Below, piece after piece: positions 37,129-43,134 of a stretch of DNA of 64,000 bases (positions are counted from its first letter, which is position 1; each line of letters opens with the position of its first letter). The notes under the pieces were generated by a model, which saw only the letters and a program-made list of their open reading frames with translations, was not told the DNA's origin and made no database searches. This DNA comes from an uncultured Porphyromonadaceae bacterium (GTDB taxonomy: Bacteria; Bacteroidota; Bacteroidia; Bacteroidales; Muribaculaceae): contig CAMKOE010000008.1 in assembly GCA_946414395.1 (NCBI GenBank), positions 1 through 64,000 on the forward strand, read 5' to 3'. Both the position numbers and the translations under genes were made by a program.

Positions 37129-38592
37129 ATGGAGAGACTTAAAAGATTATATGAGCAATATGTGGGCAGCGAGCCCACCCAGGTAGCACTCATGGACAAG
37201 GCGGGCTCCAACCGCCAGTACTACCGCCTGAGCGGCGAGCGCACCATCGTGGGTGTCATCGGCGAGTCACGTGAAGAGAACGACGCGTTCATCTACATGG
37301 CACGCCACTTCCGCGAGCAAGGGTTATCGGTGCCCGAGGTCTATGGCGTGAGCGAGGACCACATGGCCTATATCCAGGAGGACCTGGGCAAGAAGCCCGA
37401 GAATATCCTGTGGAACAAAATACGCCGCAGTTCCATCACCCATGCCTTCACCAGCGAAGAGAAAGAACTCTTGCGCCGCGCCATGCGCGACCTGGTGGAC
37501 ATCCAGTTCCGTGGGGCTCAAGGATTTGACTACAGCAACTGCTACCCTGCCAGTTGCTTTGACGAGCGCTCCATCAAGTGGGACTTGAACTACTTCAAGT
37601 ATTGCTTCCTCAAGGCCACCGGCATCAACTTCAATGAGGCCAAACTCGAAAATGATTTCGAGCGTTTGACCCAGGACCTGCTCACGGTACCCAGTGACAC
37701 CTTCATGTACCGCGACTTCCAGTCACGCAACGTCATGCTCGTGGGCGATGCCGACCATCCCGCCGACTGCAAGTTGGCCTTCATCGACTTCCAGGGCGGC
37801 CGCCGGGGCCCCTACTACTATGACGTGGCATCGTTTGTGTGGCAGGCGCGCGCCAAGTACCCCGAGGACCTGAAGAAGGAACTTGTCGAGGCCTATCTGC
37901 TGAAACTCAAGGAATACTTGCCCGATCTTGACGATAAGGATTTCTATGAGAACCTGCGCTTGTTTGTGCTCTTCCGCACGTTGCAGGTGCTTGGCGCATA
38001 CGGTTTCCGCGGCTACTTTGAGAAGAAACCCGACTTCATGAAGAACAGCATCGTTCCCGCTATTGCCAACCTGCGCAAACTGGTCATCAACCAGCCATTC
38101 ACCCGCTATCCCTACCTGAGCCTGGTCATTGACGAACTGGTGAACCTCAAGGACTTTGTCAGCGAGGATAAGGGACTCACCGTCAGGGTAATGAGTTTTG
38201 CCTACAAGAAAGGCATACCCCACGACCCGTCGGGCAACGGTGGCGGCTTTGTGTTTGACTGCCGCGCGTTGAACAACCCGGGCAAGTATGACAAGTACAA
38301 GGCTTTCACCGGCCTGGATGCCAATGTCATCGAGTTCCTGCAGAAGGAGAGCACCATCGACAAGTGGCTGGAGCATGTCTATGCCCTGGTTGACGAGTCG
38401 GTAGAACGCTATGTGAAGCGCAACTTCACCGACCTGATGGTGTGCTTCGGGTGTACTGGAGGCCAGCACCGCTCGGTTTATGCCGCCGAGCACCTGGCGC
38501 AGCACATCCACGAGAAATTCAACGTGCGCGTCGAACTCTCGCACCGCGAACAACCCGATCACGAACGCACCCTTAACCCGATTGAACGATGA
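37129..38592 (+). CDS. AmgK-like amino-sugar kinase fused to a RapZ C-terminal domain
   Basis: 487 residues. Residues about 1-335 are an APH-like kinase: the Brenner motif YRDFQSRNVML (catalytic Asp about 195) and the metal motif FIDFQGGRRGPYYYDVAS (about 219) are in the AmgK style (MurNAc/GlcNAc anomeric kinase). Residues about 350-487 are the RapZ C-terminal domain: MSFAYKKGIPHD, GGFVFDCRALNNPG, TGLDANVIEFL and CFGCTGGQHRSVYAAE (about 438-450), the conserved phospho-amino-sugar-binding loop of E. coli RapZ. The RapZ N-terminal P-loop domain is absent. It overlaps a MurU-like gene by 4 bp. Inferred role: a cell-wall recycling kinase that can sense phosphorylated amino sugars. Confidence 0.85.
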   Translation: MERLKRLYEQYVGSEPTQVALMDKAGSNRQYYRLSGERTIVGVIGESREENDAFIYMARHFREQGLSVPEVYGVSEDHMAYIQEDLGKKPENILWNKIRRSSITHAFTSEEKELLRRAMRDLVDIQFRGAQGFDYSNCYPASCFDERSIKWDLNYFKYCFLKATGINFNEAKLENDFERLTQDLLTVPSDTFMYRDFQSRNVMLVGDADHPADCKLAFIDFQGGRRGPYYYDVASFVWQARAKYPEDLKKELVEAYLLKLKEYLPDLDDKDFYENLRLFVLFRTLQVLGAYGFRGYFEKKPDFMKNSIVPAIANLRKLVINQPFTRYPYLSLVIDELVNLKDFVSEDKGLTVRVMSFAYKKGIPHDPSGNGGGFVFDCRALNNPGKYDKYKAFTGLDANVIEFLQKESTIDKWLEHVYALVDESVERYVKRNFTDLMVCFGCTGGQHRSVYAAEHLAQHIHEKFNVRVELSHREQPDHERTLNPIER

Positions 38593-39353
38593 AAGCGCTG
38601 ATTTTTGCCGCGGGCCTGGGCACACGCCTGCGCCCGCTGACCAATGACCGGCCCAAGGCCATGGTCGAGATTGCAGGCAAGCCCATGCTGCAACATGTCA
38701 TTGAGCGACTGGCGGCAGCGGGTTTTGACGACATCACCATCAATATCCACCACTTCGGGCAGACGATCATCGACTTTCTAGAGAGCAACAGCAACTTCGG
38801 GCTGAATATGCACATCAGCGACGAGCGGGGCCTGCTGCTCGACACGGGCGGCGGCATCCTCAAGGCCCGCCAGTGGCTGGATGGCGACGAACCCTTCCTG
38901 GTCCACAACACCGACATCATCAGCACCCTGGACTTGAAGGCATTCTATGACTATCATGTCGAGCACGACGCCCTGGCCACCATCCTGGTCAAGGAGCGCC
39001 AGACCCAGCGCTACCTGCTGCTCGACGAGAACGACCGCCTGTGCGGCTGGACCAACAAGGCGACCGGCGAGTTTAAGCCCGATGCCGAGAAGTTAAAGGG
39101 CCGTGACCTGAAGGAGATGGCCTTCGGTGGGCTGCACGTCATCTCACCGCGCATCTTCCCCTATCTGGAACGCTACCGTCGCCAGGAGGGAGAAAAGTTC
39201 TCGATCATCCCATTCTACGTCAGCGAGTGCAAGCACCATCTGATTCATGGCTACCATCCCGACAGCGACTACCAGTGGCTAGACATCGGCAAACCCGAGA
39301 CGCTGGCCCAGGCACAGGAATTTCTATTGCCTCATCCAGGCACATCACGCTAA
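38589..39353 (+). CDS. Nucleotidyltransferase, MurU-like (MurNAc-1-phosphate uridylyltransferase)
   Basis: 254 residues. N-terminal nucleotide-binding motif FAAGLGTRLRPLTNDRPKAM, the substrate and metal segments GLLLDTGGGI, FLVHNTDI, and the late FGGLHVISPRIF match single-domain sugar-1-phosphate nucleotidyltransferases of the MurU/HddC group. The ATGA overlap with the kinase/RapZ-C gene implies coupled translation, matching the AmgK-MurU pair of peptidoglycan recycling, in which MurNAc-1-P becomes UDP-MurNAc. A mannose- or GlcNAc-1-P substrate is possible. The last codons and stop fall inside a dispersed 26-bp repeat (39345-39370), suggesting a repeat-modified C-terminus. Confidence 0.85.
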   Translation: MKALIFAAGLGTRLRPLTNDRPKAMVEIAGKPMLQHVIERLAAAGFDDITINIHHFGQTIIDFLESNSNFGLNMHISDERGLLLDTGGGILKARQWLDGDEPFLVHNTDIISTLDLKAFYDYHVEHDALATILVKERQTQRYLLLDENDRLCGWTNKATGEFKPDAEKLKGRDLKEMAFGGLHVISPRIFPYLERYRRQEGEKFSIIPFYVSECKHHLIHGYHPDSDYQWLDIGKPETLAQAQEFLLPHPGTSR

Positions 39354-41783: not shown

Positions 41784-41859
41784 AGCAATCATTCATGCAA
41801 GAATCAGGAGTCAAAACCGTTTATAGAATAGAAAAATCATTGTTAATACTGAATTGGAT

Positions 41860-43134
41860 ATGAAACAGATTTGGAAACCTATCGCCATGGCAGCAGTGCT
41901 GATGACTAGCCTGGCGGCATGTACAATCGATGACACCTCCACGAGCAATAATGAGGTCGCCTATATGCTGCCCGAGAAGAACAACATCACCCTCACTGCC
42001 GAACAACAGCAGATGCGCGACAACAACAACGAGTTTGCCTGCCGACTGTTCCGCACCATCACCCAGCAGCAAGATGAGCCCGGCAGCATCATCTCGTCGC
42101 CCATCAGCGTGACCTACATGCTAGGCATGCTCAACGCGGGTGCCGATGGCGAGACCCGCCAGCAGATCATGGACGTGCTGGGACTGGGCAACGACCCGGC
42201 CGCCATCAATGCCTACTGCAAGAAGATGATTGACGAGGCCCCCTATGTGGACCCGAGTGTAACCGTCAAGATCGCCAACTGCATCGATGTCAATTCGGCT
42301 ATGGGAATCAGCCTGTACCCGCAATACAAGAGCGACATGCAGCAATACTACAATGCCCAGGTCGATGCGCTCGACTTCACCCAGAGTGGCAGCCTGAAGA
42401 AAATCAATGACTGGTGCAACAGCCACACCGACGGCATGATCCCCACAATACTGGACAAAATCAAGGGGGACGCGGTGATGTACCTGCTCAACGCCATTTA
42501 CTTCAAGGCCACCTGGACCGAAAGATTTGATCCCAAGGACACCCGCGACATGGACTTCGCCATGGCAGGCGGCACCACTGCAAAGCGCCAGATGATGCAC
42601 CGCATTGCCCTGGCTGCATACGGGCATAACAGCCTGTACCAGACGTTGTGCCTGCCCTACGGCAGCAATGGATATGCCATGTATGTCTTGTTGCCCAACG
42701 AGGGGAAGACGGTGGATGACGTCATCCAGGGCCTGTCGGCCGAGGGGCTTGATCATCAACTCTTAGAAATGTACCCCCACGAGGTGGATATCCTGATGCC
42801 CCGTTTCTCAACCAGCAGCGAGACAAAACTTGAGCAAGCGCTCTCGTCGATGGGTATGCCACTGGCCTTCGACCCCTATAATGCTCAGTTTCCCCATATG
42901 GCACAAGGCCATTCCCTGTATGTATCGATGATGAAACAGAAAGCCCGCATCGAGGTCAACGAAGAAGGCACCAAAGCCGCCGCTGTCACTATCGCCGAGA
43001 TGGATATGGCAATGGATCCAGGGCCAAGACAATACGAGAAGGTGGACTTCCACGCCACCCGTCCGTTTGTCTATTACATCATGGAAATGAGCACCCGCAC
43101 AGTATTCTTTATGGGAACCTATCAGGGAAATTAA
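41860..43134 (+). CDS. Serpin-family serine/cysteine protease inhibitor, lipoprotein
   Basis: 424 residues from ATG 41860; a TTG six bases upstream is not needed. The signal ends at a lipobox (LMTSLAAC), so it is lipid-anchored. The serpin fold is recognised by SIISSPISVTYMLGMLNAGA, LLNAIYFKATWTERF and the C-terminal RPFVYYIMEMSTRTVFFMG. The reactive-loop hinge EVNEEGTKAAAVTI fits the inhibitory consensus (P17-P8 E-E-G-T-x-A-A-A-x-T), so it is likely inhibitory; by position P1 falls near Ala-Met in MAMD, suggesting elastase-like targets. It begins 76 bp after the anti-sigma gene with no visible terminator or promoter between, so probably in the same operon. Confidence 0.9.
   Translation: MKQIWKPIAMAAVLMTSLAACTIDDTSTSNNEVAYMLPEKNNITLTAEQQQMRDNNNEFACRLFRTITQQQDEPGSIISSPISVTYMLGMLNAGADGETRQQIMDVLGLGNDPAAINAYCKKMIDEAPYVDPSVTVKIANCIDVNSAMGISLYPQYKSDMQQYYNAQVDALDFTQSGSLKKINDWCNSHTDGMIPTILDKIKGDAVMYLLNAIYFKATWTERFDPKDTRDMDFAMAGGTTAKRQMMHRIALAAYGHNSLYQTLCLPYGSNGYAMYVLLPNEGKTVDDVIQGLSAEGLDHQLLEMYPHEVDILMPRFSTSSETKLEQALSSMGMPLAFDPYNAQFPHMAQGHSLYVSMMKQKARIEVNEEGTKAAAVTIAEMDMAMDPGPRQYEKVDFHATRPFVYYIMEMSTRTVFFMGTYQGN

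Follow-up and report, generated by a model that had tools for sequence, protein, structure and literature searches.

Fusion of an AmgK-like sugar kinase with a RapZ C-terminal domain, paired with a MurU-like nucleotidyltransferase, in Bacteroidota

In the 64,000-nucleotide stretch analysed here (the window; contig CAMKOE010000008.1 of assembly GCA_946414395.1, from an uncultured Porphyromonadaceae bacterium), a gene for an APH-type sugar kinase continues into a RapZ C-terminal domain (RapZ-C) and is followed by a gene for a nucleotidyltransferase. The E. coli relative of the added domain senses an amino-sugar phosphate, which raises the question of what such a domain does on a sugar kinase, and in which bacteria and alongside which pathway the combination occurs.

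Architecture of the fusion and identity of its parts

The preliminary description of this DNA had recognized a kinase of the APH fold that runs on into a complete RapZ-C, without the RapZ N-terminal domain, and a MurU-like gene overlapping it through an ATGA. Both features were confirmed (Table 1). A promoter and terminator scan at the locus gave nothing above chance.

Table 1. Positions of the fusion gene, its domains and motifs, and the partner gene in the window.
Feature	Position	Strand	Basis or conservation
APH-type sugar kinase + RapZ C-terminal domain, 487 aa	37129..38592	+	ORF, domain profiles
Kinase domain, AmgK-like, residues ~1-330	37129..38118	+	
Catalytic loop YRDFQSRN, residues 194-201	37708..37731	+	R195, D196, F197, N201 invariant in 40 rows of A2
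Presumed metal-binding motif IDFQGG, residues 219-224	37783..37800	+	I219, D220, Q222, G223 invariant in A2
RapZ C-terminal domain, residues 347-475	38167..38553	+	
Inserted loop GNGGG, residues 369-373	38233..38247	+	Missing from E. coli RapZ (gap of 5 residues); no variation at G371-G373 in A1 or A2
NPG, residues 383-385	38275..38283	+	Gly at E. coli RapZ pocket His190; invariant in A1 and A2
Phosphate loop GCTGGQHRS, residues 441-449, strand-loop-helix	38449..38475	+	Sequence and secondary structure
Two-gene overlap ATGA, 4 bases	38589..38592	+	
MurU-like sugar-1-phosphate nucleotidyltransferase, 254 aa	38589..39353	+	Best NCBIfam model MurU, best PDB match 4y7t

Conservation was read from three alignments: A1 (27 of 30 loci; L014, L027 and L030, split or stand-alone, were left out), A2 (39 of the 80 named loci described below plus the window, 40 rows) and A3 (the nucleotidyltransferase; 28 of the 80 named loci plus the window, 29 members). 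The kinase and RapZ-C search profiles were built from A2, and the nucleotidyltransferase profile drew on 48 sequences from these named loci.

The window kinase scored 42.4 bits against the AmgK model NF045759 (cut-off 550) and 36.8 bits against NF045698, also AmgK (cut-off 500), reaching neither cut-off. At E <= 0.001, these models matched 40/40 and 38/40 of the fused proteins in A2, respectively, and other kinase families matched at most 6/40. The catalytic loop (RDF...N) and the Asp of IDFQ, a residue that we take to bind metal by analogy with the APH fold, are kept and align to HRDF..QN and IDFQ of 3csv. 3csv is the PDB kinase closest in sequence (E 7.5e-10), and its own best profile is AmgK, with 205 bits over a 249-aa stretch, under the cut-off of 500. 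For the window nucleotidyltransferase, the best model was MurU NF045761 (141.9 bits, below its cut-off of 250), and MurU NF045697 gave 124.2 bits (cut-off 370, not reached). Across the 29 members of A3, MurU had the best E-value (7e-45, next family 1e-27), although many other nucleotidyltransferase families also match 29/29. The signature residues G9, G11, R13, L14, P16, T18, P22 and K23 and the acidic pair D109 and D232 are invariant in A3, and the protein aligns with its best PDB sequence match, 4y7t (E 3.3e-25). Judged by these profiles, the two proteins look most like AmgK and MurU, yet lie outside both families by curated score; the enzymology is likely ordinary and the architecture unusual.

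Against the RapZ model NF003828, the fusion scored 109.9 bits through its C-terminal part only (cut-off 244, not reached). The C-terminal fold and the phosphate loop are common to the fusion and E. coli RapZ, with an rmsd of 1.5 Å over 123 residues at 36% identity, whereas the N-terminal P-loop NTPase domain of RapZ is absent from the fusion and the APH kinase stands in its place. Of the residues lining the E. coli pocket, T248, G249, H252 and R253 are kept; the fifth, H190, corresponds to Gly385, which is invariant in the fusion family. The phosphate loop lies between a strand (E435-442) and a helix (H448-464), and CTGG[QRK]HRS occurs in 145/147 distinct RapZ-C domain strings from the loci collected. 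With this placement, GCTGGQHRS fits the CX5R(S/T) loop pattern of CX5R cysteine phosphatases. One fusion (L138, 2332-3729, minus strand) has a degenerate phosphate loop in which His and Arg are lost, and represents a natural variant.

The C-terminal domain of E. coli RapZ alone is reported to bind GlcN6P with a KD of 10 nM (PMC7073468), and its pocket to be occupied by sulfate or malonate (PMC5737377). Since His190 is replaced by an invariant Gly and a conserved insertion (GNGGG) lies in the neighbouring loop, the ligand in the fusion family may be a different, larger phospho-sugar. From these residue changes, GlcN6P specificity of RapZ-C cannot be assumed, and a MurNAc-phosphate would be at least as likely a ligand. 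A role as a phospho-amino-sugar sensor, as the preliminary description had proposed, is plausible by homology; GlcN6P and hexosamine supply are the weakest parts of that idea. None of the four residues that bind RNA in E. coli RapZ is conserved in the fusion: K270 aligns with V466, and K281, R282 and K283 fall on D477, H478 and E479 if the structural match ends ungapped. This agrees with the earlier suggestion of a route other than RNase E.

Spread of the fusion and its linkage to the nucleotidyltransferase

In a phylum draw of 296 genomes including the window's own, RapZ-C was found in 36, in 27 frames of at least 478 aa and 9 of 134-155 aa. Seven of the nine short frames have a kinase ORF directly upstream (L014, L141-L146). 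Two stand-alone RapZ-C frames in this draw (L139, 5435-5836, and L140, 5083-5493, both on the minus strand) have no kinase or nucleotidyltransferase within ~5 kb. In the window's order, 101 of the 119 sampled genomes carry RapZ-C, 93 of them in frames of fusion length (at least 466 aa); eight of these 93 were read, and all eight are kinase plus RapZ-C. Fusions cut at contig ends in G401 and G459 were also read as kinase-RapZC, and six carriers (L127-L132) have a separate RapZ-C ORF with an adjoining kinase ORF. Canonical RapZ was not seen among the 119 genomes, where all RapZ-length frames were otherwise explained. A scan of named genomes gave at least 587 relatives, and the 80 best were taken as the named loci. 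These 80 come from Bacteroides, Parabacteroides, Phocaeicola, Prevotella and kin, Muribaculum and many MAGs, and include one record titled Ignavibacteriales and one titled Calditrichia. The distribution can be patchy: among 41 genomes of the genus to which a termite-gut Tannerella MAG belongs, 13 have the fusion. The fusion, first described from a single genome, is thus not confined to it and forms a widespread family. Because it recurs in many genomes, an origin by chance or by assembly error was ruled out.

The three domains also occur in other arrangements. Kinase, RapZ-C and nucleotidyltransferase are three adjacent genes in, for example, L014, L128, L130 and L142-L146, and a single 760-aa frame in one MAG (L084). 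In a quick tree built from 81 kinase domains, which took in 36 of the 80 named loci, the split label has to change 7 times, and well-supported branches force at least 3 of these changes. Another joined form is a 736-aa frame with a B3/4 domain ahead of kinase-RapZC (L133, 2573-4783, minus strand).

A nucleotidyltransferase counted as the downstream neighbour when its domain started -20 to 500 bases from the fusion end. This was the case in 20/26 fused loci of the phylum draw (L002-L030, the window's own left out) and in 56 of the 76 named loci that had enough room (900 bases or more), from the best 80 of at least 587 relatives; 4 of the 80 lacked room for the check. The preliminary description had called for a genome survey of co-occurrence. 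At E <= 1e-50, the MurU-like gene was present in 96/101 RapZ-C carriers and 6/18 non-carriers of the 119 genomes (p 9e-9, uncorrected for kinship), with both in 96, RapZ-C alone in 5, the nucleotidyltransferase alone in 6 and neither in 12. One of the six nucleotidyltransferase-only genomes has an adjoining kinase without RapZ-C (L122), and the other five have no kinase within the 5.5-7 kb read. Comparative evidence from profiles and co-occurrence supports the earlier view that an AmgK-like sugar kinase works with a MurU-like nucleotidyltransferase, in genomes that showed no canonical RapZ.

Relatives of the window's crp, DUF4924, rmlD and prfC genes were each found in only 3/80 named loci (best 80 of at least 587), namely L031-L033, the three closest among the matches listed; for rmlD, both flanks of ~4 kb were available in 58/80. 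These other neighbours do not belong to the fusion-nucleotidyltransferase unit. A serpin gene (window 41854-43134, Pfam E 3.9e-91) lies ~2.5 kb downstream of the nucleotidyltransferase, and no serpin relative was found in the 80 named loci (best 80 of at least 587).

MurNAc salvage and genomes without MurA and MurB

The anabolic MurNAc route of Pseudomonas is described as comprising AnmK, MupP, AmgK and MurU, in a genus that lacks MurQ as many Gram-negative bacteria do (PMC5371407). In the 119 genomes of the window's order, AnmK was present in 78/101 RapZ-C carriers and 4/18 non-carriers (p 1e-5, uncorrected for kinship), and MurQ in 18/101 and 9/18, respectively (p 0.005, likewise uncorrected). 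The MurQ threshold was set at E < 1e-20 because weaker matches resemble other SIS proteins; it gave 27/119, a count in which the matches of G399, G426 and G464 are partial or lie in long frames. At the curated cut-off, the MurQ counts were 12/101 and 7/18 (p 0.009). AnmK is present and MurQ absent in 70 carriers; the window's own genome is an exception, with MurQ present and no AnmK match.

Among 12 genomes behind named loci, MurA over the cut-off was missing in G304 (titled Calditrichia) and G305 (Ignavibacteriales), which have no MurB match either and both carry the fusion. We then considered 59 genomes of the order of G305, in which MurA over the cut-off was found in 51 and MurB in 52. Six of these have neither a MurB match nor MurA over the cut-off (G305, G466, G467, G478, G498 and G517). 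The fusion is present in 6/6 of them and in 17/53 of the others (p 0.002, uncorrected for kinship), a count that includes the kinase-only G465 and leaves out G512 (E 7e-4). The 17 comprise 15 genomes with both MurA and MurB, G465, and G494, in which MurA is absent and MurB falls just under the cut-off (142.7 against 144.5 bits). In G519, MurA is absent, MurB present and the fusion absent. G305, G466 and G467 are apparently the same as G216, G267 and G132 of the phylum draw, each listed as 99% complete, and G132 is a single contig of 3.67 Mb. G305, G466, G467, G478, G494 and G517 each have a nucleotidyltransferase downstream of the fusion, in G478 with a small ORF in between; in G498 the contig ends too soon for the check. 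Since G467 and G517, and likewise G466 and G478, share neighbourhoods, the genomes without MurA and MurB represent about four independent lineages. In this order, a GNAT acetyltransferase gene lies directly upstream of kinase-RapZC in L173 (8646-9182) and L180 (8859-9392; Pfam-checked), and the gene at 10693-11226 of L177 has similar first residues. The substrate of this GNAT protein might be an amino sugar from the same pathway.

These genomes resemble the case of Tannerella forsythia in that both are without MurA and MurB. The species is held to use these two enzymes without MurA/MurB (PMC7670621), and AmgK does not figure in the accessible portion of the paper on its MurK (PMC5790795). The gene content suggests that genomes with the fusion and without MurA and MurB may depend on salvaged MurNAc, outside Tannerella; the fusion would serve as a marker for such genomes. 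AnmK enrichment, MurQ depletion and the presence of the fusion in genomes lacking MurA and MurB all fit UDP-MurNAc salvage.

Proposed role of the RapZ-C domain and alternative readings

The architecture, its conservation and co-occurrence, the fold and the residue changes are observed; for the substrates, ligand and regulation of the fusion, we infer the following. The kinase domain would phosphorylate recycled MurNAc, perhaps also GlcNAc, at the anomeric position, and the nucleotidyltransferase would convert the product to UDP-MurNAc, bypassing MurA and MurB. RapZ-C would be a phospho-amino-sugar-binding module fixed to the kinase, most likely binding a hexosamine phosphate of the pathway (MurNAc-6-P, MurNAc-1-P or GlcN6P), and would adjust the activity of the kinase or the passage of its product to the nucleotidyltransferase, by an effect on the protein rather than through RNA. 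A cell-wall salvage unit of this kind, made up of both genes, is in our view probable.

RapZ-C could instead serve mainly as a dimerisation or docking scaffold for channelling between the kinase and the nucleotidyltransferase, without a sensing role. The E. coli domain is reported to dimerise by itself (PMC7073468), split, joined and three-domain forms interchange on the tree, and the window genes overlap; but the nearly invariant phosphate loop goes beyond what a scaffold needs, and the nucleotidyltransferase is not the downstream neighbour in 20/76 named loci with room (best 80 of at least 587), which makes a pure scaffold rather unlikely. Synthesis of some other nucleotide sugar by the pair (UDP-GlcNAc/GalNAc or an activated sugar for a capsule, for instance), or activity on a substrate that is no sugar, we regard as improbable: AmgK and MurU lead the curated models, the fusion is associated with AnmK and with the loss of both MurA and MurB, and rmlD relatives turned up in only three of the 80 named loci (best 80 of at least 587).

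Another reading makes RapZ-C a catalytic domain, a cysteine phosphatase that takes the 6-phosphate off MurNAc-6-P, so that the operon would carry out dephosphorylation, 1-phosphorylation and uridylylation. This is quite unlikely in our judgement, and it is a long shot that RapZ-C is a cysteine-dependent hexosamine-6-phosphate phosphatase in a compact three-step UDP-MurNAc machine, with E. coli RapZ descending from part of a metabolic enzyme. If the phosphatase reading holds, the step is possibly that of MupP, the Pseudomonas MurNAc-6-P phosphatase, which is described as an HAD enzyme, unlike RapZ-C (PMC5371407). It is scarcely credible that the fusion binds RNA and serves as an RNase adaptor in the manner of E. 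coli RapZ. The RapZ-C domain is common to both, and the copies of Bacteroides finegoldii and Parabacteroides distasonis bear the product name 'RNase adapter RapZ' in RefSeq, but the RapZ N-terminal domain is missing, the four RNA-binding residues are not conserved, and the RNA-binding part of RapZ is reported to be restricted to Enterobacteriaceae (PMC7073468). We rejected this name on domain and residue evidence.

The salvage unit that we favour shares with AmgK-MurU recycling (Pseudomonas, Legionella, Caulobacter, and reported for T. forsythia) an APH-type kinase with a MurU-like nucleotidyltransferase, the association with AnmK and the MurA/MurB bypass, but its kinase bears a C-terminal RapZ-C and its sequences score far under the equivalog cut-offs. 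The AmgK-MurU route is described as seen in few species only: P. aeruginosa, Legionella, Tannerella forsythia and Caulobacter (PMC13046382). The fusion would place a distinct version of it widely in Bacteroidota, including records of Bacteroides, Parabacteroides and Prevotella, and lets one ask directly which function RapZ-C had before its incorporation into an RNA regulator. A published description of the kinase-RapZC fusion was not found in the literature searched, a search that reached few subscription papers. Its identity would correct the RefSeq name of such genes; the neighbour of the B. finegoldii and P. distasonis copies is named 'nucleotidyltransferase family protein'. Two records labelled as Bacteroides/Parabacteroides plasmids (NZ_OY725912.1 and NZ_OY725790.1) carry the fusion-nucleotidyltransferase pair, which is of housekeeping type, and are perhaps chromosomal pieces.
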